Source: Desulfobacteraceae bacterium
Lineage (GTDB): Bacteria; Desulfobacterota; Desulfobacteria; Desulfobacterales; SURF-7
Assembly (NCBI GenBank): GCA_003599865.1
Contig: QZKS01000097.1
Coordinates: 1-57,446 of the forward strand
Direction of reading: 5' to 3'
Length of the DNA stretch: 57,446 nt
Positions 7,299 through 48,793 of this stretch are shown here, in pieces. How positions within the stretch are numbered: the stretch's first letter is position 1; every line of letters starts with the position of its first letter. The translations under genes were made by a program, and so were the position numbers. Below the pieces are notes generated by a model. It did no database searches, was not told the DNA's origin, and saw only the letters and a program-made list of their open reading frames with translations.

Positions 7299-8488
7299 TC
7301 TTTCATCAGAACAAATTTGCCTTGCTGAAATTTTGTGAAATAAACCCGGTCCAGTCCCTGATGATCACGGGAACTGAAGGAAACGGTATTCTCGATTCCC
7401 AGATCCAGGTCGGTGATGGATTCAATGGCCTGAATGAATTTTATTCTGGTGATGTCCCTTCCCGCCCGTTTTAGCCCTTCCACCAGGATCATGGCATTGA
7501 TATATCCTTCAAGGCCCACAAAATTCGGTTCATCGTCCGGAAAATACCGCTTCAGCCTCCGGGAATATTCCTTTGTTCCCCAGAGAAGATTCTGTGTTTC
7601 CGGCATTTCCGGAGAGGGAACCACCTGGGTTACGATCACACCATCCCCATGTTCGTCCAGCCTTCGGGCCAGCTCATCCGCTCCGACAAAGGAGAGATTG
7701 TAAAACAGGCCGTTAAAGCCTTTGGATTTCGCCAGTTTGATGAATTTCGCACAGGGCTCGTAGGTTCCGATCATCATGACGGCTTCCGGATCGGTGTCGA
7801 TGATTTTATCCAGTCCCTCTTCGATATCCAGGGTTCCGCGGATATAGGTTGCGGTAGCCGTCGGAACAAGATGATACTCTTTCAGGGCCAGTTCCGTTCC
7901 CTTGAGCCCGTCAAAACCATAGGCATCATATTGATAAAAAACAGCGACTTTTCGGATATGCTTCACCTCGACCATATGCTGGACAGCGGCCTTCGTTTCC
8001 TGGTAATAAGAGGCCCGGATATTGATCAGATAGGGAGAAAAGGGCTCCCGGAGCTCATTGGCGCCGGTAAACATTCCCAGCAGGGGAATTTTTGCCTCAT
8101 TCACCAGCGGGATGATTTTTACGGTGGTCGGTGTTCCCACATAACAGAAAAGGGCAAAAACCCGGTCTTCCAGAATCAGTTTCTGGGTATAGTACACGCA
8201 TTTGGGAGGATCATATTCATCATCATACGCAATTACCTTGATCCTGCGCCCGTGAACGCCCCCTTTCTCGTTGATATGGTTCAGATAGGACAGTGCGCCA
8301 TGAAGGGTCTGCGTGCCCAGGTATCCGGCATGGCCGCCCAGTGCTAGGGATGAGCCGATCAGAATCCGTGTATCGGTGATGCCGTCATTTCTGTCTTCGG
8401 ACGGAATATTCCGGGACGGGTCATTGCATCCAATGATGATGCCGAAAAGCAGCAAGGTGATTGCCATTGAAATGAGCAATGGTTTCAT
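7277..8488 (-). CDS. branched-chain amino acid type periplasmic binding lipoprotein
   Basis: A 403-residue type I periplasmic binding protein of the LivK/AmiC kind. The N-terminus is a lipoprotein signal (IIIGC, Cys21), followed by TRILIGSSLALGGHAGYLG, a classic first strand and ligand loop, then INEKGGVHGRRIKVIAYDD. No ABC permease or ATPase gene accompanies it. It overlaps the RND-kinase fusion upstream by 4 bases (ATGA) and the PAS kinase downstream by 22 bases. By analogy with AmiC-like sensors and LuxP-type partners, it most likely binds a small molecule and presents it to one of the membrane kinases rather than serving transport. The ligand is unknown. Confidence 0.87.
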   Translation of the reverse strand: MKPLLISMAITLLLFGIIIGCNDPSRNIPSEDRNDGITDTRILIGSSLALGGHAGYLGTQTLHGALSYLNHINEKGGVHGRRIKVIAYDDEYDPPKCVYYTQKLILEDRVFALFCYVGTPTTVKIIPLVNEAKIPLLGMFTGANELREPFSPYLINIRASYYQETKAAVQHMVEVKHIRKVAVFYQYDAYGFDGLKGTELALKEYHLVPTATATYIRGTLDIEEGLDKIIDTDPEAVMMIGTYEPCAKFIKLAKSKGFNGLFYNLSFVGADELARRLDEHGDGVIVTQVVPSPEMPETQNLLWGTKEYSRRLKRYFPDDEPNFVGLEGYINAMILVEGLKRAGRDITRIKFIQAIESITDLDLGIENTVSFSSRDHQGLDRVYFTKFQQGKFVLMKEWGSGRK

Positions 8489-12707: not shown

Positions 12708-13718
12708 TCAGCATATCCTTGGCAGTTGTTCGCCGGTTTGCATGTCCACAATTCGTTCCCCGCCGATTCGGGTTTCCATAATGACCCGTTTGGGCGCGGT
12801 TTCCGTAACCATACCGATCACACAGGCATCTTTGCCGGCCGGATCGTTTTGAATGGCGGCAAGGACAGCGTCCGCATCAGACGGCGGGACAAAGACCAGC
12901 AGCTTTCCTTCATTGGCCACATAAAGCGGATCAAACCCGAGCAGTTCACAGATTCCGGCCACATCCTTTTTGACCGGTATTCTGTCTTCATATATCCGGA
13001 TGCCCAGGTTGGACTGAATGGCGATCTCATTGAGTGTCGTTCCCACGCCGCCCCTTGTGGGGTCACGCAGCACATGGACATTTTTGCCGGCCGACAGGAT
13101 GGCTTGAACCATGTGGTTTAGCGGAGCGGAATCGCTTCGGATTTCGGTGTCAAAGGAAAGGCCTTCCCGCTGGGTGAGGATGGTCATGCCGTGGTCGGCA
13201 ATGGTTCCGCTTAAGATGATATGATCCCCGACACATGCTCTTTCACCGCCGACGTTTACCCCGTCGGGAATCAGCCCGATGCCGGAGGTATTGATGAAAA
13301 TTTTATCCGCAGCGCCTCTGGGTACAACCTTGGTATCCCCGGTTACGATAAGGACATCGGCCAGCCTGGCGGCTTTTCCCATATCATCGAGAATCCGCCG
13401 CAGATCTTCGATGGGAAAGCCCTCTTCGATAATCAGTCCGACACTCAGGTACAGGGGTCGGGCTCCGCACATGGCAACGTCATTGACCGTTCCGTTAATC
13501 GCCAGATCGCCGATGCTTCCGCCCGGAAAAAATAACGGAGAAACCGTGTACGTATCGGTGGAAAAAGCCAGACGGGCACCGCCGACCTCAAGACTTGCAC
13601 CATCATTGAGCATGGAAAGGATCGGGTTGTCAAATGCCGGCAGCATGATGTCCCGGATCATGGCGCTTGAAATTTTACCGCCGCTGCCATGGTCCAGCAG
13701 GATATGATCGGTAGTCAT
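12708..13718 (-). CDS. hypE: Hydrogenase maturation protein HypE (carbamoyl dehydratase)
   Basis: A 336-residue HypE. It begins with DHGSGGKISSAMIRD, carries the PurM-like ATP site (NDGASLEVGG, STDTYTVSPLFFPGG, GDLAINGTVNDVAM) and ends in PRIC. The C-terminal cysteine (Cys336) is the residue that receives the carbamoyl group from HypF and is dehydrated to a thiocyanate, the source of the cyanide ligands of the active-site iron. It works with HypF, HypC and HypD, all encoded just upstream in the same direction. The gap to hypD is 68 bases, the widest among these maturation genes. Confidence 0.97.
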   Translation of the reverse strand: MTTDHILLDHGSGGKISSAMIRDIMLPAFDNPILSMLNDGASLEVGGARLAFSTDTYTVSPLFFPGGSIGDLAINGTVNDVAMCGARPLYLSVGLIIEEGFPIEDLRRILDDMGKAARLADVLIVTGDTKVVPRGAADKIFINTSGIGLIPDGVNVGGERACVGDHIILSGTIADHGMTILTQREGLSFDTEIRSDSAPLNHMVQAILSAGKNVHVLRDPTRGGVGTTLNEIAIQSNLGIRIYEDRIPVKKDVAGICELLGFDPLYVANEGKLLVFVPPSDADAVLAAIQNDPAGKDACVIGMVTETAPKRVIMETRIGGERIVDMQTGEQLPRIC

Positions 13719-13786: not shown

Positions 13787-14878
13787 TCAACCGCCATGAT
13801 ATTTATAGTAAGCCGCACAGGTACCTTCACTGGAAACCATGCAGGGGCCGATTGGATGAAGCGGCGTGCAGGTTTTCTTATACAAGGCACAATCCGGCGG
13901 TATTTTGACGCCGGTCAGGATTTCACCGCAGGCGCATCCCCTGGGTTCGGGCGTCTGCCGGTAACTGATCCGAAACCGTTTGGCCGCATCAAAATTTTCA
14001 AATGCCTGCTGAAAAAACAATCCGCTGTCCGGGATCGATCCAATGCCTCGCCAGACAGTATCACCGGATTGAAAAACCGTTTTCAGAAGGGCTTTGGCCT
14101 TCGCATTTCCGGTTTCGGATACCGCCCGGGGATAGGCATTCTCCAGAATGTTCCGGCCGGTATCAATCTGTCTGACCAGCATATGGATCCCACTTAATAT
14201 ATCAACAGGCTCAAATCCGGTAATCACACAGGGGATCGGATGGTGGCGGATAAAATCACGATAGGCGCCGGCCCCGATGATCACGGAAACATGCCCGGGA
14301 AGAAGAAAACCGTCTATCCTGACTTCCCTGGTTTGCATGAGTGCGTTCAAGGCCGGTACAACCTGCTTGTGGGCGGAAATCACGGAAAGGTTTTTCAGGT
14401 TCATGGCCTGTGCGGAAAGCACGGAAGCGGCAATGGTTGGAGCCGTGGTTTCAAAACCCACACCCAGAAACACCACTTCTCGATCCGGGTGGTTCCGGGC
14501 AATTTCCAGAGCATCAAAGGCGGAATAGACAATCCGGATATCCCGGCCGTTTGCCCGTTCTTTCTGCAGGGAGGAGTCGGAACCCGGAATCCGCATGAGA
14601 TCTCCAAAGGTGGTGATGATGACGTTTTTTTCCCGTGACAATTCAATAAACGCATCGATTTCTCCCTGTGCCGTCACACAAACCGGACAACCCGGACCGG
14701 AAAGAAGGGAAACGGTTTCGGGAAGAATGGAACGGATGCCGTTTTTGAATATGGAAACCGTATGGGTGCCGCAAACCTCCATCAGTCGCAGAGGCCGGTG
14801 GCTGTTTTGATGAATTTTTTGAATCAGGCTTTTGGACAATTCCCGGTCCCGGTATTCTTCCGCGTGTTTTATGGACAT
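13787..14878 (-). CDS. hypD: Hydrogenase maturation protein HypD
   Basis: A 363-residue HypD, the scaffold that, with HypC, assembles the Fe(CN)2CO group. Conserved pieces are RLMEVCGTHT (Cys36, His39), SGPGCPVCVT (Cys64 and Cys67, the redox pair), the GFETTAPTIA loop and FLLPGHVSVIIG. The C-terminal cysteine set that holds a [4Fe-4S] cluster is present (RGCACGEIL, CALYKKTCTP, GPCMVSSEGTCAAYY). It overlaps the hypF 3' end by 10 bases, so it is probably coupled to it in translation. The length fits the family. Confidence 0.97.
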   Translation of the reverse strand: MSIKHAEEYRDRELSKSLIQKIHQNSHRPLRLMEVCGTHTVSIFKNGIRSILPETVSLLSGPGCPVCVTAQGEIDAFIELSREKNVIITTFGDLMRIPGSDSSLQKERANGRDIRIVYSAFDALEIARNHPDREVVFLGVGFETTAPTIAASVLSAQAMNLKNLSVISAHKQVVPALNALMQTREVRIDGFLLPGHVSVIIGAGAYRDFIRHHPIPCVITGFEPVDILSGIHMLVRQIDTGRNILENAYPRAVSETGNAKAKALLKTVFQSGDTVWRGIGSIPDSGLFFQQAFENFDAAKRFRISYRQTPEPRGCACGEILTGVKIPPDCALYKKTCTPLHPIGPCMVSSEGTCAAYYKYHGG

Positions 14879-17175
14879 GTTGATGGATCTCCCATTCGGG
14901 CGGATGCAATAACGGCCTGTCCCAATGAGATTCCGCCGTCATTGCAGGGAACCAGGGAATGGCTCAGCACCGTAAAGCCTTTTTTCGAAAGAGCCCGGAA
15001 CAGCCCCTGGAAAAGAATCCGGTTCTGGAATACGCCGCCGGTGAGCGCAACCCGGTTCAGTCCGGTTGTTTTTCCGATGGTTTCCGTAAGCTCCGCAAAC
15101 AGTTGAATCAGGGTGTTATGGAATTTTCCGCAGATGACCGACTGGTCGACATGGTGGATCACATCCCGCACCACTCCCTGCACAATGGATTTTACACTGA
15201 TTTGAATGGGAGTACCCTCCTGCCAGGCATAATCATAGATCCCTTCCGTGGTATGGTCTGCCGCCATTTCCAGTTCCATGGCAGCCTGTCCTTCAAAGGA
15301 AACCCGGTATCGCAGGCCGACAATGGCCGCAATGCCGTCAAACAAACGTCCGAGACTGGAGGTCATGGGGGAATTGATTCCGCCGTTCACCATTTGCACG
15401 ATCGTATCGATTTTCGAATGATCAATGGCCTGGAACATCGGAAGATTGAATTCCCGGCAGGTTTCCCCGAAACTGTCCAGAAGGTAACTCATTCCCATGC
15501 GCCATGGCTCTCGGACAGCGGCAGCGCTTCCCGGCATGGGAATATAGGATAAATGGGCTGTCCGGTCAAACTGTTTAAAATCCGCCAGCAGGATTTCTCC
15601 TCCCCAGACCGTGTGATCCGGACCATATCCGGTGCCGTCAAACGCCAGACCGATGACCGTTTCCCGGGTGTGGTTTTCCGCCATGCAGGCGGCAACATGG
15701 GCGTGGTGGTGCTGGACACCGATCCGGATCTTGTCCGTCCGGGCGGTTGCATATGCCGTGCTCAGATAGCCGGGATGAAGATCATGAGCGATCACGGCAG
15801 GGTGGATATCCAGGATCCGTTCCATGTGCTGGATGGTCTGCTGAAAAAACGCTTCTGTGGAAGGATTTTCCAGATCGCCGATATGCTGGCTGAGAAAGGC
15901 CTGGTCCTCACGGGTCAGACATATGGTATTCTTGAGTTCCGCACCGCATGCCAGCACTTCTGCCGCTGGGGTGCCGAGAAAAATCGGAACCGGAACATAC
16001 CCTCGCGATCTGCGGACCTGCCGGGCGGTGCGATGGATTACCCGGACAATGCTGTCATCGCTTCTCAGGTAAATCTCCCGATTGTGGATCAGGAAATAGT
16101 CGGCAATCCCTCCCAGCCTTTGAAATGCATCCTGATTGTTGATACAGATGGGTTCCTCGCTTTGGTTACCGCTGGTCATGACCAGGGCCGAAAAATGATG
16201 GGAAAGGAGGAGATGATGAAGCGGCGTGTAGGGCAGCATCACGCCCAGATACCGGTTTCCGGGCGCCGTCAGCCGGGCAATGGAAGAATGTCTTTTTTTC
16301 TGCACAATGACAATGGGGCGGGCAGGGGACAGGAGCGCCTTTTCCTCGTCAACGTCCAGTTCGGCAAATTCACGGATTTTTTCAAGATCACGAGCCATGA
16401 GGGCAAAGGGTTTTTCCTCGCGATTTTTTTTTTTGCGCAGGTTGGCAACGGCATGGTTGTTTTCCGCATCTACTGCCAGGTGAAAACCGCCCAGACCTTT
16501 AACGGCAACAATCTTTCCGGCCCTTAACAGCGCGACGGTTTTTTCGATCGGGTGATCGGTCTCTACAGGTTTCCCCTGATCTGTGTAGAGGGATACCATT
16601 GGGCCGCACCGGAAGCAGGCATTGGGCTGGGCATGGAAGCGCCGGTCCAGCGGATTATCATATTCCGCCTGACACTCCGGGCACATCTGAAAGTTTTTCA
16701 TGGAGGTACAGGCGCGGTCATAGGGAAGGTCGTCGATAATCGTGTATCGTGGACCGCAATTGGTGCAGTTGATGAAGGGATAGTGAAAACGCCGATTTGC
16801 CGGATCAAACAGCTCGGACAGGCAGTCCCCGCAAATGGAGACATCCGGTGAAATCAAAGCTGATTTCAGATCCCCATGCCCCTTGCTGGAGGCAATGGAA
16901 AAACCGGAATAACCCTTTACGATTTCTTCCGTAATCGCCATATGTGTAATTTGGGCAAGGGGCGGTTTTTTCATGGGGATGGTTTGGTAAAACAGCGCAA
17001 TGTCCTGAGGAGCGCCTTCCACAAAAATGGAAACGCCGTCGGCCGTGTTGGCAATTTCACCGCACAGTCTGTTTTCTTTTGCCAGTTGAAAAACAAAAGG
17101 CCGAAATCCGACGCCCTGAACAATGCCGCTGATTTCCAGCCTTTTTGCCGTAAGATCTGATTTTCTGTCCCGCAT
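14869..17175 (-). CDS. hypF: Hydrogenase maturation protein HypF (carbamoyltransferase)
   Basis: This 768-residue protein makes carbamoyl-AMP from carbamoyl phosphate and loads it on HypE. The domains come in order: N-terminal acylphosphatase (GIVQGVGFRPFVF, about 17-29), two zinc fingers (CGDCLSELFDP with INCTNCGPRYT; CPECQAEYDNP with ACFRCGP), a YrdC-like domain (KIVAVKGLGGFHLAVDA) and a Kae1-like domain (VQHHHAHVAACMAE, AFDGTGYGPD, LTGGVFQN). The start overlaps the hypC stop by one base (TAATG), and the end overlaps hypD. All key residues that I can check are present. Confidence 0.97.
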   Translation of the reverse strand: MRDRKSDLTAKRLEISGIVQGVGFRPFVFQLAKENRLCGEIANTADGVSIFVEGAPQDIALFYQTIPMKKPPLAQITHMAITEEIVKGYSGFSIASSKGHGDLKSALISPDVSICGDCLSELFDPANRRFHYPFINCTNCGPRYTIIDDLPYDRACTSMKNFQMCPECQAEYDNPLDRRFHAQPNACFRCGPMVSLYTDQGKPVETDHPIEKTVALLRAGKIVAVKGLGGFHLAVDAENNHAVANLRKKKNREEKPFALMARDLEKIREFAELDVDEEKALLSPARPIVIVQKKRHSSIARLTAPGNRYLGVMLPYTPLHHLLLSHHFSALVMTSGNQSEEPICINNQDAFQRLGGIADYFLIHNREIYLRSDDSIVRVIHRTARQVRRSRGYVPVPIFLGTPAAEVLACGAELKNTICLTREDQAFLSQHIGDLENPSTEAFFQQTIQHMERILDIHPAVIAHDLHPGYLSTAYATARTDKIRIGVQHHHAHVAACMAENHTRETVIGLAFDGTGYGPDHTVWGGEILLADFKQFDRTAHLSYIPMPGSAAAVREPWRMGMSYLLDSFGETCREFNLPMFQAIDHSKIDTIVQMVNGGINSPMTSSLGRLFDGIAAIVGLRYRVSFEGQAAMELEMAADHTTEGIYDYAWQEGTPIQISVKSIVQGVVRDVIHHVDQSVICGKFHNTLIQLFAELTETIGKTTGLNRVALTGGVFQNRILFQGLFRALSKKGFTVLSHSLVPCNDGGISLGQAVIASARMGDPSTCP

Positions 17176-17414
17176 TAATTTGAAATGTCATCCTTTTCTA
17201 CAAATGCGAGGGTTTCCTTGAGAATCTGAAGGGATTCCTTGGCGACAGTCTCATCGATTTTATGAATGGCAAAGCCGGCATGAACAATTACATAATCGCC
17301 GAGCTGCGGTTCTTCAATCATTAGAAGACTGACATCTCTTTTGACTCCGTCAACATCAACCGTTCCCATGTCCCCGTCAATTCGGATAATTTTAGATGGA
17401 ATGGCGAGGCACAT
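17175..17414 (-). CDS. hypC: Hydrogenase assembly chaperone HypC
   Basis: A 79-residue HypC. The start at 17414 is decided by the family rule that Cys2 must follow the initiator: MCLAIPSKIIRIDG. A longer frame reaching 17489 exists but would hide this cysteine. HypC carries the iron precursor between HypD and the large subunit precursor and binds through Cys2 and the conserved His in GDYVIVHAGFAI. Its start lies inside the 3' end of the protease gene (23-base overlap), and its stop shares a base with the hypF start. Confidence 0.95.
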   Translation of the reverse strand: MCLAIPSKIIRIDGDMGTVDVDGVKRDVSLLMIEEPQLGDYVIVHAGFAIHKIDETVAKESLQILKETLAFVEKDDISN

Positions 17415-17907
17415 GATCAACGCTCCTTTTTTGCCATGAAATACCATGCCTGGTGAGTTCTTGCAGCACCATTTCAATGGTCGGGTCAATTTTTGATCGG
17501 GTTGTTTCGCTCAGTTCAATGCTCACGGTTTCGATATCCTCCGGTTCCACACCGATAATCACGGTTTCAGGAACTTTATCCAATGCCCGGCACAGGGTAA
17601 GCGCCTCCAGGAAATCGATTTGGTGCAGGGAATTCTTGGCCCGGATTCGTTCCGGAATCGCTTCTCCTTCCAGCCGGTATAAGGAGCCCGGTTCGCATTT
17701 GTTCCGGATCGCATCCACCACAATCAGTTGATCCGCTTCTGAAATGACGCCCAGAAGATTCATTCCCAGAACACCGCCGTCCACCAGGGATACGTTGTCC
17801 GGAAATGTAAACCGTTTGTCCATTTCTTCCACGACACGCACACCAAACCCTTCATCTTTATATAAAATACATCCCACTCCCAGGATCATGATATGGTTAG
17901 GCTTCAT
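17392..17907 (-). CDS. [NiFe] hydrogenase maturation protease (HyaD/HybD family)
   Basis: A 171-residue endopeptidase that trims the C-terminal tail of the large subunit after nickel insertion. The start at 17907 gives MKPNHIMILGVGCILYKDEG and is preceded by an AAAGGAGC ribosome site; an upstream ATG at 17940 would lie in the hairpin region. The nickel-binding acid of the DEGFGVRV loop and the later VVDAIR aspartate are present; the family's usual GN is GVG here (ILGVGCI). It follows the large subunit gene after a strong hairpin and overlaps hypC. Its likely substrate, the large subunit, has a 15-residue tail after His531. Confidence 0.93.
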   Translation of the reverse strand: MKPNHIMILGVGCILYKDEGFGVRVVEEMDKRFTFPDNVSLVDGGVLGMNLLGVISEADQLIVVDAIRNKCEPGSLYRLEGEAIPERIRAKNSLHQIDFLEALTLCRALDKVPETVIIGVEPEDIETVSIELSETTRSKIDPTIEMVLQELTRHGISWQKRSVDHVPRHSI

Positions 17908-17926
17908 GCCGCTCCTTTGCAGAAAA

Positions 17927-17962
17927 ATCCCCGTCATCATGGGTAGGGATGATGACGGGGAT
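17927..17962 (-). terminator. perfect 14-bp hairpin with T-tract between large subunit and protease genes
   Basis: The arms at 17927-17940 and 17949-17962 are exact complements (ATCCCCGTCATCAT / ATGATGACGGGGAT) around an 8-base loop. On the minus strand the second arm runs into TTTTT, so it looks like an intrinsic terminator. It lies between the structural hydrogenase gene and the maturation genes, all on one strand, and probably lowers expression of the latter or protects the 3' end of the structural mRNA. Confidence 0.8.
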
Positions 17963-17974
17963 GGTATGAAATGA

Positions 17975-19615
17975 TCAGGTTACCCTGATTTTGTACACCT
18001 CATTGGAATCCGGGTCGATGATATGAACCCCGCATGCGACACAGGGATCAAAAGAGTGTACGGTTCGCAATACTTCCAGAGGCTGTTTGGGATCTTCCAC
18101 CGGTGTCCCGATCAATGCCTGTTCCACCGGGCCCGGTTTTCCGTTCCCGCACCGGGGACCCAGGTTCCAGGTGGAGGGAACCACGTACTGATAGTTTTTG
18201 ATCACCTTTTTTTCAATCTGGATCCAATGTCCGAGAGCACCTCGGGGCACATCGTTCAGGCCCACGCCCATGCCGTTGTTCGGCATTTCCCAGGACTGGT
18301 AGGTTTTGGTTTTGCCGTTTTTCACATTATCCATCAACTGCATATACCATTTTTCCATGCGATCGCCGATGGCAACGGTTTCCAGTCCCCTTGCCGCGGT
18401 CCTGCCCAGGGTTGAAAACAGGGCGGTGACCGGGATATCCAGTTTTTTCAGGGTGCCGTCCACCAGTGTTTTGATTTCCGGATGCCCTTTTGCATAAGCC
18501 ACCAGAACCCGTGCCAGCGGTCCCACCTCGCAGGATTCATCCATATACCGGGGTGCCTTGAACCAGGAATATTTTTCTCCCGGACGGTAGTCCCCGTGCT
18601 TGGGTTTGGTTTCTCCCTGGAAGGGGTGAAGGGCTTTTCCATCTTCATACCAGGCGTGGGAGACATGTTCCGTAACCTTTTTCTGGTCTGCCGGTTTGAT
18701 GTCTGCAATATTTTTTTTCTGAATAAATCCTCCCGGCATGAACAGGCTGTCCGGTTCCTGATCGCTCTCCGGAAATTCTCCCCAGGCCAGGAAGTTATCC
18801 GTACCGCCGATGGCGCCCCAGTCCTTATAGAAGGATGCAACCGCCAGAAGATCCGGGATGTAGACATTTTTAATAAAATCCTGGGTTTCTTTCCAGATAA
18901 ACAGGAACTGGGCCAGACGATCCGGATTCAGATCACGGATCGATGTGATCCCGCCGACCACAAGACTCTGCGGATGGGGATTTTTACCGCCCAGGATGGC
19001 ATGATTTTTTGCCGCTTTTGCCTGAAGCTTCAAGGCTTCCAGGTAATGGGAGGTTGCCATCAGGTTGGCTTCCGGCGGCAGCTTGTATGCCTTGTGGCCC
19101 CAGTATGCATTGGCAAAGGGTCCGAGCTGCCCGCTGTCCACAAAGGTCTGGACCCGGTTCTGGACACTTTTGAAATAAGCGGTTCCGCCCCAGGGGGCAT
19201 TGCTGACCTGGTCGGACAGGGCCGCGGTCTTGGCCGGATCGGCCTTTAAGGCACTTACGATATCCACCCAGTCCAGGGCATGGAGATGATAAAAATGAAC
19301 AATATGATCGTGCTGGAATTGTGTGCCGTGAAGAAGGTTCCTCATCAGGCGGGCATTGTCCGGTATTTTGACGCCGACAGCATCTTCGACTGCCCTCACC
19401 GAGGACAGAGCATGGGTGTAGGTTCAAACCCCGCAGGAGCGCTGCACAAAATGATGGGCATCCCTCGGATCGCGTCCCTGAAGGATGAGTTCAATACCGC
19501 GGAACATCTGGCCGGAGCTCCAGGCATTCACGACCTTGCCGCCGGACACCTCCACTTCGATTCGAAGGTGTCCTTCGATTCGGGTAATCGGATCAATGGT
19601 AATTCGTTTGGCCAT
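17975..19615 (-). CDS. [NiFe] hydrogenase large subunit with in-frame TGA (probable selenocysteine at residue 64)
   Basis: Group 1 periplasmic-type uptake hydrogenase large subunit, 546 residues if the TGA at 19424-19426 is read through. The N-terminus [20 protein letters not shown] is typical. Motif L1 reads R59-S-C61-G-V-[TGA 64]-T-Y-T-H, where every ordinary family member has a cysteine at position 64. The frame continues without break into [12 protein letters not shown]. Motif L2 is DPCVAC (Cys525, Cys528), followed by GVH531 and a 15-residue tail for the protease. Known [NiFeSe] enzymes have selenocysteine at the first position of L2, not here. A SECIS-like hairpin follows the TGA. The alternatives are a nonsense mutation or a base error. 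Small subunit upstream (50-base gap), maturation genes downstream. Confidence 0.85.
19390..19408 (-). promoter_or_regulatory. bacterial SECIS-like hairpin downstream of the TGA codon
   Basis: RNA from +16 to +34 after the UGA reads CUGUCCUCGGUGAGGGCAG. It folds into an 8-bp stem (one G-U pair) closed by the three-base loop GGU at +24 to +26. Published descriptions of bacterial SECIS elements ask for a stem-loop with a small apical loop starting about 16 to 37 bases after the UGA and a G among the first two loop bases; this meets all of them. The hairpin lies inside coding sequence, as bacterial SECIS must. Such a hairpin can occur by chance. Confidence 0.65.
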
Positions 19616-19665: not shown

Positions 19666-20601
19666 TTACATCTCTTTATAGAATGGTGTCATTTGATCCC
19701 AGAAATTCGGTTGACTGCATCCGATGCACGGATGTCCGGCTTGAACCGGCCAGCTGGTACCGCCATTGAATTTGGCCGTGGGGCAGTTGTTGTATGTTTC
19801 CGGTCCGCGACAGCCGACTTTGTAAAGACAATATCCCAAAGCCGCTTCTTCCGACCCGAATTCCAGGACAAATTCCTCGTTTTCAAAATGGGAACGTCTG
19901 TCACACTGATCATGAACGGTTTTTCCATAGGCAAAGAGGGGACGGCCCAGGTTGTCCAGTGCCGGCAGCTTGCCGAGCAGGATATAGTTCACAACCGTTC
20001 CGATCAGGTTGACCGGATTGGGCGGGCAGCCCGGCAGGTTCAGGGTTTTTACCCCCAGGGCATCTCCGACTCCCTTGTATCCGCCCGGGTTGGGTTTGGC
20101 CGCCTGAATGCCGCCAAAACAGGCGCAGGTTCCCATGCAGACAACCGCCGCTGCCTGGGGGATGATTTCTTTTCCGATCTGCAGGAAGGTTTTACCGCCG
20201 ATCTTGCCGTAAGCCCCGTCATATTTGGTGGCAATTGCGCCTTCCACCACACAAACAAACTTGCCTTTGTATTTTTTGGCGGAAGCATACAGGATTTCTT
20301 CCGCCTGGTGCCCGGCTGCCGCCATGATGGTTTCATGATACTCTATGGAAAGAAGATCGACAACCAGCTCATCAACCCATGGATACATGGTTCGAAGCAT
20401 GGCTTCCGAACAGCCCGTGCATTCCCCGAAGTTAAGCCAGATGATCGGCGGCCGCTCTTTGGGAGCTGCAAAAACCTCGGCTACCTTGGGAACCATGGAT
20501 GAGGACAATCCCATGGTGGCTGTGAGGTAGGTACAAAATTTCATGAAATCCCTTCGAGAGACCCCTTTTTTTTCAAGCCGATTGTAAAATTCGTTTTCCA
20601 T
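19666..20601 (-). CDS. [NiFe] hydrogenase small subunit (Tat-exported)
   Basis: A 311-residue electron-transfer subunit with three Fe-S clusters. The start at 20601 has an AAGGAGG ribosome site; the frame stays open far upstream but without a coding character. The signal SRRDFMKF (residues 15-22) and a hydrophobic stretch ending near VFAA mark Tat export with the large subunit riding along. Cluster ligands are visible: GECTGCSEAM (Cys61, Cys64), MGTCACFGG, PGCPPNP, HDQCDRRSHF, GYCLYKVGCRGP, NNCPTAKFN and HPCIGCSQPNFWD. There is no C-terminal membrane anchor and no cytochrome b gene nearby, so it is a soluble periplasmic enzyme that probably passes electrons to a cytochrome c. Confidence 0.95.
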   Translation of the reverse strand: MENEFYNRLEKKGVSRRDFMKFCTYLTATMGLSSSMVPKVAEVFAAPKERPPIIWLNFGECTGCSEAMLRTMYPWVDELVVDLLSIEYHETIMAAAGHQAEEILYASAKKYKGKFVCVVEGAIATKYDGAYGKIGGKTFLQIGKEIIPQAAAVVCMGTCACFGGIQAAKPNPGGYKGVGDALGVKTLNLPGCPPNPVNLIGTVVNYILLGKLPALDNLGRPLFAYGKTVHDQCDRRSHFENEEFVLEFGSEEAALGYCLYKVGCRGPETYNNCPTAKFNGGTSWPVQAGHPCIGCSQPNFWDQMTPFYKEM

Positions 20602-21117: not shown

Positions 21118-21714
21118 CTATTTTAAGGAAAAGCCTTCCGTTGTAAAACAGGGAAGTGTTGTTTCGATGAAAAAATGAAAGATTTTGGCGGTTAATCCCC
21201 AGACCGTTACATCATCATAGGGATAGAGAAGTTCAAACACATCCGGCTGTCTTCCGGAAAAATTTCCTTCCTGATGGGTTTTGATAAGATGTTCAATGGG
21301 GATGGCAACCATTTTCGATATTTCGGATGCGTCAAACCGGATATCGCTTCTCCCGTTCCATAACCCGATAAAAACCTCCACATCCCGATGGAATATGGTT
21401 TGAAAATGTCCCATTGAACCGATGAGTTCCACATGATCATGGGGGATGTTTACTTCTTCCTTCAGTTCACGATAGGCGGCGTTCAATGGATTTTCATCCC
21501 GGTCTTCCAGGTGTCCCCCGGGAAGTGCCACCTGATTACGCCAGGGATAGCCCTCGTTGTCCGCTTTTTGAATGGCCATAATTTGCGGGTTGCGATCCAG
21601 ATCAAACAGAAGCAGAAACACACAGGCAGGCTTGTAGCCTTCATCTTCCGGTGCCTGGGGAAGCATGGCCCGCTCCAGGTTATGTTTCAGGCAGGACAGG
21701 GAGATTTTCATCAT
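21118..21714 (-). CDS. Nudix hydrolase, CoA pyrophosphatase-like
   Basis: A 198-residue Nudix protein. The box spans GGHLEDRDENPLNAAYRELK followed by EEVNI, with the metal-binding glutamates in place. The upstream part, around VFLLLFDLDRNPQIMAIQK, and the late FELLYPYDDVTVWGLTAKI resemble the CoA-pyrophosphatase subgroup (NudL/YeaB), where the region WGLTA is typical. Substrates of that group are CoA and its derivatives. The start overlaps the end of the thioredoxin-like gene by 4 bases (ATGA), so it is co-transcribed with the thiol genes. Confidence 0.85.
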   Translation of the reverse strand: MMKISLSCLKHNLERAMLPQAPEDEGYKPACVFLLLFDLDRNPQIMAIQKADNEGYPWRNQVALPGGHLEDRDENPLNAAYRELKEEVNIPHDHVELIGSMGHFQTIFHRDVEVFIGLWNGRSDIRFDASEISKMVAIPIEHLIKTHQEGNFSGRQPDVFELLYPYDDVTVWGLTAKIFHFFIETTLPCFTTEGFSLK

Positions 21715-22187
21715 TGTTTCCGATTTTGCAGGAATTCATTGATATTCATTTTTTTATAGCTGTCCGTATGAATGAACCGGAGAAAATCAATCATCTGCTC
21801 CGGTGAAATATAACCGGGACGGTTGGCGATTTTTTCACCATCCGTCTGTAAAAACCAGTTGGAGGGAAGGCCTCTGACCTGGTATTGCACGGTCAGTTCC
21901 TTCTGTTGATCGGAATCCACCCGGATCGGGATAAAATTTTCATTCAGATACTGTATGACGGAAACATCCTTGAATGTTTTCTGATCCATGGTTTTACAAT
22001 ATCCGCACCAGGATGCGTAAAAATGCAGAAAAATTTTTTTCCCTTCGGCTTTGGCGGAAGTCATGCCGTTTTGATAGGATGCCCACTTGATTTCACTGGA
22101 TAACACGTTGTTTGCGGTCGAAATATGAATCAACCCCAAAAAAAGAAAAACGATCAGACAATTTTTAATCAAAAAATGTTTCATCAT
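21711..22187 (-). CDS. periplasmic thioredoxin-fold protein
   Basis: The start at 22187 (158 residues) has an AGGTGA ribosome site and puts a signal peptide (FLIKNCLIVFLFLGLIHI) at the N-terminus; the longer frame from 22250 is coupled to the ccdA stop but adds a long odd leader. The active site is ASWCGYCKTMD, and the fold ends with the cis-proline loop VRGLPSNWFL. This is the DUF255/thioredoxin_7-like group of exported thiol reductases. Next to CcdA, which moves electrons across the membrane, it is most likely the periplasmic acceptor that keeps cytochrome c or other cysteines reduced. Confidence 0.85.
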   Translation of the reverse strand: MMKHFLIKNCLIVFLFLGLIHISTANNVLSSEIKWASYQNGMTSAKAEGKKIFLHFYASWCGYCKTMDQKTFKDVSVIQYLNENFIPIRVDSDQQKELTVQYQVRGLPSNWFLQTDGEKIANRPGYISPEQMIDFLRFIHTDSYKKMNINEFLQNRKQ

Positions 22188-22249
22188 GTCACCTGTACGT
22201 CCTGTTTGGAACCCCTTTTGTGTAAACTGGTTTTTTCGGCAAAGCGGCA

Positions 22250-22954
22250 TTACACCCCTGTGATTAAAAAAAGCTTGTCAAAGAATAGTAGAAGACCAAG
22301 TATAATCAGTAGGATGCCGGCTGCCAGATGGATATGCCGAATCATGCCCGTGGCCTTTTTGATGAATATAAGGATGAAATTGATAAAAATCGACAGCAAA
22401 ATAAAAGGAATCGCCAGGCCGGCGGAATATACGGCAAGAAGAGACATGCCCTTATAGACCGTATCCTGGCTTCCCGCCAGGATCAGGATCGAGCCCAGCA
22501 GCGGTCCGACGCAAGGGCTCCAGCCGGCGCCAAAGGCCATTCCGATCATAAAGGCGCCCAGAAAATGAAGGGGTTTTTTTTCCAGACGCAGTTTTTTTTC
22601 AAACAGAAGGACTCGAATCGGTAACCATCCGGTCAGGTGGATTCCAAACAGGATAATGACGGCCCCTCCGACCTTGGTGATCATATTCCGATATTCAAAA
22701 ATCAGTCCGCTCAAATAGGATGCAGACGCACCCAGCAGGATAAAGATCAGTGAAAAACCCAAAACATATGACAACGTGGATGCAACAATCCGGATATGGA
22801 CGGCGGATGTTCTTTTTTTTTCCGTGAGCTCTTCCAGAGAAAGCCCTGTAATAAAAGTAAAATATGCTGGAATCAAGGGCAGTACGCAGGGAGAGAAAAA
22901 GGATGCCAGCCCGGCAAACAGGGCAAGGTGATATGGTACGCTTTCAGGGTTCAT
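22250..22954 (-). CDS. ccdA: CcdA/DsbD-type thiol electron transporter
   Basis: A 234-residue membrane protein with six helices. The paired redox cysteines are in FFSPCVLPLIPAYF (Cys23) and GWSPCVGPLLG, the signature of CcdA. It takes electrons from cytoplasmic thioredoxin and gives them to a periplasmic thioredoxin-like partner, here encoded directly downstream. In anaerobes with many c-type cytochromes this supports haem attachment. The proC gene ends 3 bases upstream, so the row proC-ccdA-trx-nudix reads as one transcript. Confidence 0.93.
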   Translation of the reverse strand: MNPESVPYHLALFAGLASFFSPCVLPLIPAYFTFITGLSLEELTEKKRTSAVHIRIVASTLSYVLGFSLIFILLGASASYLSGLIFEYRNMITKVGGAVIILFGIHLTGWLPIRVLLFEKKLRLEKKPLHFLGAFMIGMAFGAGWSPCVGPLLGSILILAGSQDTVYKGMSLLAVYSAGLAIPFILLSIFINFILIFIKKATGMIRHIHLAAGILLIILGLLLFFDKLFLITGV

Positions 22955-48680: not shown

Positions 48681-48693
48681 AAGCAGGTTCTAT

Positions 48694-48765
48694 GGTCCCA
48701 TCGTCTAGCGGTCAGGACGCTGGCCTCTCACGCCGGTAACACGGGTTCGAATCCCGTTGGGATCA
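48694..48765 (+). tRNA. tRNA-Glu (anticodon CTC)
   Basis: A 72-base cloverleaf: acceptor GGTCCCA pairs with TGGGATC (one G-U), D-arm around TCTAGCGGTCAGGA, anticodon stem CTGGC/GCCGG with loop CTCTCAC (anticodon CTC, read as GAG) and T-arm ACGGG-TTCGAAT-CCCGT. The discriminator is A and CCA is not encoded. AT-rich foreign DNA starts right after it, so its 3' end is the probable integration site of the element to the right. Confidence 0.95.
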
Positions 48766-48793
48766 TACCAGAATGAAATCAATGAGTTGAATT

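Follow-up and report, generated by a model that had tools for sequence, protein, structure and literature searches.

Probable natural selenocysteine at a bridging ligand position of a [NiFe] hydrogenase from Desulfobacterales

Results and Discussion

An in-frame TGA in a hydrogenase large-subunit gene

The window (the whole stretch of 57,446 nt that was analysed) carries a hydrogenase gene cluster in which the small-subunit gene lies directly upstream of the large-subunit gene, and the genes for HupD, HypC, HypF, HypD and HypE follow downstream on the same strand (Table 1). In a genome profile search the large subunit was matched by PF00374 over its full length (733.9 bits, with one TGA inside), which is the sole match to this model above the cut-off in the source genome; the other covers 66 positions at 22.5 bits, below the cut-off. 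Its top match among solved structures was the periplasmic [NiFe] enzyme 1h2a (726 bits). The features by which a group 1 [NiFe] hydrogenase is recognised were all found, namely a large subunit that matches PF00374 and has both L1 and L2, and a small subunit as its partner.

The first-pass annotation had placed a TGA exactly where the second cysteine of RxCGxC belongs, in a frame otherwise intact and with both L2 cysteines, and each of these points was borne out: codon 64 is a TGA in the context RSCGV-TGA-TYTHA, the following 482 codons (65-546) are open, the L2 motif is complete, and no other stop lies inside the large-subunit frame. We take residue 84 of 1h2a_L, the counterpart of codon 64, to bridge Ni and Fe, and residue 81, the counterpart of codon 61, is presumably a terminal ligand. 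Two of the four hydrogenase cysteines bridge, according to the accessible part of PMC9961374. Judged from the gene alone, one L1 ligand of a group-1-type hydrogenase would be selenocysteine (Sec).

Table 1. Coordinates of the hydrogenase genes and motifs in the window, and of the second UCA tRNA and selB* in the source genome
Feature	Position	Strand	Remarks
HypE	12708..13718	minus	TIGR02124 above cut-off
HypD	13787..14878	minus	TIGR00075 above cut-off
HypF	14869..17175	minus	TIGR00143 above cut-off
HypC	17175..17414	minus	PF01455 96.6 bits (cut-off 28.5); start MCLAIPSK is a frame reading
HupD/HyaD-type maturation endopeptidase	17392..17940	minus	TIGR00140 168.4 bits (cut-off 151.8)
[NiFe] hydrogenase large subunit	17975..19615	minus	546 codons, from ATG to a TGA stop; TGA at codon 64, probably read as Sec
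L2 cysteines, codons 525 (TGT) and 528 (TGC), DPCVAC	18032..18043	minus	Sec absent here
SECIS-like hairpin, 8-bp stem, GGU triloop, CUGUCCUC-GGU-GAGGGCAG	19390..19408	minus	19 nt; 15 nt past TGA
In-frame TGA, codon 64, second L1 cysteine position	19424..19426	minus	aligns to residue 84 of chain 1h2a_L
Codon 61 (TGC), first L1 cysteine	19433..19435	minus	aligns to residue 81 of 1h2a_L
Hydrogenase small subunit, twin-arginine signal SRRDFMKF	19666..20601	minus	TIGR00391 391.5 bits (cut-off 179.5); TIGR01409 27.5 (cut-off 16.7)
Second UCA tRNA (contig C38)	near 7737-7828		within G000:C38:16000-34000 (L019)
selB* (contig C38)	7857-9770		within G000:C38:16000-34000 (L019)

Recurrence of TGA at codon 64

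Large-subunit matches were obtained in 243 of the 389 genomes of the order. Codon 64 was read in 110 loci, comprising all 57 flagged with one TGA and 53 flagged with none among the matches listed; further listed matches flagged with none, and matches outside the listing, lie beyond this reading. Among the matches listed, TGA stands exactly at codon 64 in 57 of 57 one-TGA loci, which come from 56 of the 389 genomes, and every one of these loci has Cys at codon 61 and no second stop; the 53 other orthologues have TGC (35) or TGT (18) at codon 64. Both L2 sites are Cys codons in all 109 loci that reach L2, among them 56 TGA loci, the TGA locus of G056 ending early. Homologues thus share the TGA and the hairpin described below and offer Cys alternates (57 TGA and 53 Cys loci among the matches listed), as the first-pass prediction implied.

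A survey of the phylum gave matches in 167 of 395 genomes; among rows L294-L314, L320 and those flagged with TGA, it yielded two further close TGA orthologues (G469 and G519). TGA also occupies the same codon in a separate branch of about 52% identity, represented by one family (G479, G507 and G603). The gene of G603 (L315, C106) has TGA at both codons 61 and 64, reading I-U-G-V-U-T, in a single genome bin where a base error is possible; in the closely related G479 and G507, codon 61 is TGC and codon 64 is TGA. The hairpin after the TGA is a different one in this branch, and it is kept in the Cys relative G534, 88% identical to G603, so that it does not discriminate between TGA and Cys there.

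When GTDB r220 was searched with a DNA pattern that includes the TGA, 86 stretches were found; the 80 covered here come, by title, mostly from deltaproteobacterial or Desulfobacterota bins. Those 80 include Eth-SRB1, Candidatus Desulfaltia, the Olavius Delta 1, 3 and 4 symbionts, Desulfococcaceae HSG9 and two Nitrospirae bins. Since the pattern itself requires it, TGA stands at codon 64 in all 80 loci, which also overlap with the surveyed genomes; they count toward range and not as proof. By record title, three loci with the same TGA and hairpin fall outside Desulfobacterales, two in the Nitrospirae bins (L200 and L228) and one in a Desulfobacca bin (L170). The Nitrospirae large subunits are 72-74% identical to the Desulfobacca one, and horizontal transfer of the TGA hydrogenase of these bins is possible.

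A hairpin conserved only where codon 64 is TGA

The SECIS-like hairpin reported in the first-pass annotation was recovered with its 8-bp stem and GGU loop, the first hairpin base being the 16th after the TGA. Folded alone, the 61-nt stretch 19430-19370 showed no unusual stability (z -0.13, with 85 of 200 shuffles equally good); stability therefore proves nothing here, and the evidence for the hairpin is its conservation. The window contains a single instance of the combined TGA and hairpin pattern, and 0 of 100 shuffles contain one. An Rfam search at E up to 10 returned five matches far below their gathering scores, with no SECIS model among them.

All eight hairpin pairs form in 56 of 59 TGA sequences versus 0 of 53 Cys sequences, and the element folds with a mean energy of -11.0 kcal/mol in the former and -4.7 kcal/mol in the latter. 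The sequences are related rather than independent, so the p-value for pairing is not to be taken at face value, and it is the contrast between TGA and Cys sequences that constitutes the evidence. Because the hairpin hardly varies it shows little covariation; in the TGA sequence of G071, one pair is G-U where most have U-G.

Constraint was measured along the gene as same-codon identity, computed over sequences that share the residue. The gene-wide mean is equal in the two groups (0.475 and 0.474). At codons 69-77 the value is 0.89 in the TGA group, with codons 71-74 at 1.00, versus 0.398 in the Cys group; in 513 windows elsewhere, the TGA group has a mean of 0.468 (sd 0.053) and a maximum of 0.611. 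The hairpin is thus frozen at synonymous sites in the TGA group only. Purifying selection acts on the gene past the TGA: the median dN/dS there is 0.133 (346 of 1596 TGA pairs usable), compared with 0.174 in the Cys group (431 of 1378 pairs).

At least 13 TGA/Cys changes are needed on a quickly built tree of 110 rows that left out the codon-64 and hairpin columns; nine of them are forced by starred branches, and gains, losses and transfers are not distinguished. Since a single base turns TGA into TGC or TGT, our preferred reading is that these changes would represent repeated loss from an ancestral Sec state.

Selenocysteine machinery in the source genome and its relatives

The source genome (5.01 Mb, 97.1% complete, 2.75% contamination) encodes selA on contig C4 (638.8 bits), a canonical selB on C23 (381 bits), tRNA-Sec (selC) with G73 on C11 (74 bits), and selD on C17 (372.8 bits), the last with its own in-frame TGA followed by a GGU-loop hairpin. 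The first-pass annotation had made its prediction depend on selB and selC and had named selA and selD as a further check; both pairs are present. G73 is essential for tRNA-Sec function, according to the accessible part of PMC5330540. TGA was also found in 5 of the 15 FlpD/MvhD matches of the source genome.

selB and tRNA-Sec were surveyed in 80 genomes, made up of the 56 TGA genomes and, from the 53 Cys genomes, the 24 that scored best. A canonical selB match was obtained in 49 of the 56 TGA genomes, those of G007 and G183 being partial and that of G007 under the cut-off. The seven TGA genomes with no such match are G037, G075, G079, G101, G116, G164 and G198, of which G101 is rated 97% complete; four of the seven have tRNA-Sec, and G075, G079 and G164 (83, 71 and 81% complete, respectively) gave neither a selB nor a tRNA-Sec match.

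Of the 56 TGA genomes, 40 yielded a canonical tRNA-Sec, one of these (in G200) being an odd tRNA without CCA; of the 24 Cys genomes, 23 did. The search, run with stricter filters and partly on draft genomes, returned no canonical tRNA-Sec for 16 of 56 TGA genomes, as against 1 of the 24 Cys genomes (p 0.016 if kinship is disregarded). At E 1e-8 there was no tRNA-Sec match in 12 of the 56 TGA genomes, and G128, G153, G189 and G242 had only the selC* type considered below. Some TGA genomes without a canonical tRNA-Sec match (G003, G128, G153, G189 and G199) are rated 95-99% complete. In all three TGA genomes of genus g12 (G003, G199 and G232) canonical selB was found but canonical tRNA-Sec was not, and of the 16 TGA genomes with no canonical tRNA-Sec match, 12 have selB. 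ARAGORN detected no tRNA-Sec around selB in those 12 genomes nor in the controls, G172 and the source genome G000 (14 in total); tRNA-Sec does not lie near selB in this group, and the surroundings of selB therefore cannot settle the matter. The gap in tRNA-Sec counts against the Sec reading, or is at least unexplained. The machinery is also common in Cys genomes and therefore permits TGA at codon 64 but does not predict it.

A weak match to the tRNA-Sec model (50.5 bits) was seen at G071:C114:28733-28818, on the same contig as the TGA hydrogenase of that genome (12294-13934); ARAGORN found no Sec tRNA in the G071 stretch examined.

A second opal decoder in the source genome

Contig C38 of the source genome carries a second tRNA with UCA, which has U73, a bulged A in the T-stem and an acceptor stem readable as 8 bp, and which sits 42 nt upstream of a second selB match (selB*; Table 1). 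As reviewed in PMC7609411, in the part accessible to us, a tRNA of this kind beside selB* is the selC* tRNA-Cys, and selC*/selB*, in some cases with cysS*, form a system with a UGA-reading tRNA in Desulfobacterales and Syntrophobacterales; this system is co-resident with the TGA hydrogenase in the source genome. The C38 tRNA fits the selC* definition in its U73, UCA, bulged A and adjoining selB*, and departs from the Desulfobacterales form (A1:U72, with cysS* downstream) in its first base, which is G (G1:C72); the first base is A in 9 of the 11 selC* tRNAs read. U73 was found in 11 of 11 tRNAs typed beside selB*, that of the source genome included, and G73 in 32 of 32 distinct canonical-type tRNA-Sec genes typed (the 30 best tRNA-Sec loci, L001 and that of G172).

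The gene neighbours of selB* include what we read as a metF-like gene and an Fe-S biosynthesis-like gene, the latter just under the Pfam cut-off; immediately next to selB* is a gene for a putative selenium transporter of the YedE type, with a gene resembling a Se/S carrier close by. By our own reading, SelB* has LSRTYLVD where canonical SelB has LTKNDLVD, an altered nucleotide-binding motif. A tandem copy of the pair lies at G215:C40:940029-944342, where two tRNA matches of selC* type and two frames resembling selB* follow one another.

Decoding of codon 64

Both decoders might act on codon 64 in the minority of genomes that have both, with Sec inserted when selenium is available and Cys inserted through selC*/SelB* when it is scarce, a possibility that overlaps with the reading preferred here and that we consider unlikely. 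It draws on the proposal, in the accessible part of PMC9437257, that CysRS*/SelC* offer a second way to make selenoproteins under selenium shortage, and on the source genome having both sets, with selB* close to the transporter and carrier-like genes. It also requires SelB* to bind the hairpin, which is only supposed; moreover, no cysS* was found among frames of at least 150 aa in the 18 kb around selB*, and with its G1:C72 the C38 tRNA would depend on ordinary CysRS.

Reading of the UGA as Cys by the selC* tRNA-Cys(UCA) with SelB*, which would make the enzyme an ordinary [NiFe] hydrogenase, is decidedly improbable. The source genome does carry a UCA/U73 tRNA directly upstream of its second selB, selB* is commoner in TGA genomes (at least 11 of 56) than in Cys genomes (at least 2 of 53; p 0.016, kinship ignored), these counts being lower limits with at most three candidates scored per genome, and four TGA genomes with selB* (G128, G153, G189 and G242) had only a selC*-type tRNA. 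However, all four have canonical selB as well, a selB* match at E below 1e-100 is absent in 45 of the 56 TGA genomes (up to three candidates scored in each), and 22 of the at least 33 selB* genomes lie outside the TGA set. Furthermore, the single contig of G172 holds a TGA hydrogenase, canonical selB and a G73 tRNA-Sec with no selB* match, and the hairpin is alike in TGA genomes with and without selB*. As a general rule, selC*/selB* as a dedicated Cys decoder of codon 64 is contradicted by the survey of 389 genomes; Cys may be inserted there in the four genomes named.

A sequencing error, a pseudogene or programmed termination after 63 residues, any of which could look like this if a lone TGA were seen in one draft genome, is hardly credible given the same codon in 57 loci among the matches listed, with no other stop, a downstream dN/dS of 0.13 and, in the TGA group alone, frozen synonymous sites past the TGA.

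Our preferred reading is that codon 64 encodes Sec, inserted by the ordinary machinery at a bridging Ni-Fe ligand of an exported group-1-type [NiFe] hydrogenase, to which we assign a probability of roughly 85%. Support for the first-pass prediction of Sec as the second L1 ligand comes from the recurrence of the TGA, from the constraint on the hairpin in the TGA group only, from the low dN/dS downstream and from the presence of selA, selB, selC and selD.

Proposed route to the mature enzyme

In the proposed mechanism, SelB would recognise the 19-nt hairpin starting 15 nt downstream of the UGA at codon 64 and bring in canonical Sec-tRNA (selC, G73) to decode that codon. The chain would then be completed and its C-terminal tail cut by the neighbouring HupD-type protease, the Hyp proteins would install the metal centre, and the enzyme would probably be exported by the twin-arginine route, as its neighbouring genes suggest. 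Since residue 64 is by homology one of the two bridging thiolates, a single Ni-Se-Fe bridge would be expected in the mature centre of what is presumably an active enzyme.

A bridging Se would be expected to affect Ni-Fe coupling and oxidative inactivation rather than the proton relay, which should be little affected because it uses a non-bridging ligand. More tentatively, the TGA genes may form a natural class of hydrogenases with a selenolate Ni-Fe bridge and many TGA/Cys exchanges, in which the G603 enzyme would have two seleniums on nickel and Sec and Cys would be switched by selenium supply where selC*/SelB* coexists; we regard this wider picture as possible but doubtful.

Relation to known hydrogenases

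In its full-length homology, twin-arginine small subunit and HupD and Hyp genes, the enzyme resembles the standard periplasmic [NiFe] hydrogenase represented by 1h2a, whereas here Sec would take the place of one metal-binding cysteine. The [NiFeSe] enzymes (HysAB; archaeal VhuU/FrhA) likewise have Sec as one of four Ni ligands and occur in anaerobes including sulfate reducers, but their Sec is the first L2 cysteine (UxxC) and non-bridging, whereas L2 is Cys-Cys here and Sec would be the second L1 residue. The NCBIfam HysA model NF045518 scored 419.1 bits, short of its cut-off of 780.

Cys-to-Sec variants of E. coli Hyd-1 have reportedly been engineered, in a 2021 paper. For E. coli Hyd-2, the accessible part of PMC11212049 describes enzymes with Sec forced at cysteine 61, 64, 546 or 549 that were active below native levels; in C64U, one of these active enzymes, Sec occupies the position that corresponds to codon 64 here. 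These are laboratory products obtained through TAG recoding, whereas a natural UGA and hairpin are found here.

In the accessible part of a 2026 table of 119 selenoprotein families (PMC13188914), Sec in the hydrogenase alpha subunit is listed only as UxxC, and CxxU only for the delta subunit. No natural L1 Sec appeared in the accessible parts of work on Asgard recoding, D. autotrophicum, [NiFeSe] evolution and marine deltaproteobacterial code expansion, nor in those of a 2022 review and of deep-Sep, serpentinite lithotroph and voltammetry work. Nor was one seen elsewhere in the literature surveyed, as far as accessible, which leaves aside the 2007 O. algarvensis selenoproteome, 2017 tRNA and 2021 Hyd-1 papers, preprints and RefSeq. 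Within the literature covered, a natural L1 Sec in a [NiFe] hydrogenase therefore appears to be new.

Within the same literature, Sec as a natural metal ligand of [NiFe] hydrogenases is otherwise known only at the non-bridging L2 position, where it serves the proton relay. Since a bridging Se cannot act like the L2 Sec, a widespread natural case would allow the role of the bridge to be tested directly, on hydride position, CO and O2 sensitivity and catalytic bias, and the repeated TGA/Cys changes would supply natural matched pairs. Gene finders that stop at TGA would truncate the enzyme, so that H2 metabolism may be underestimated among sulfate reducers living in sediments, at seeps and as symbionts.

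Other features of the window

Comparison with viral contigs gave no match. Upstream of the hydrogenase, thioredoxin-like and DsbD-like genes were observed at 21711-22954, whose NCBIfam matches include the selenoprotein TsoB, far below its cut-off; no stop was found inside their listed frames, the interior of each frame being what was covered. A tRNA-Glu (CTC) lies at 48693-48766.
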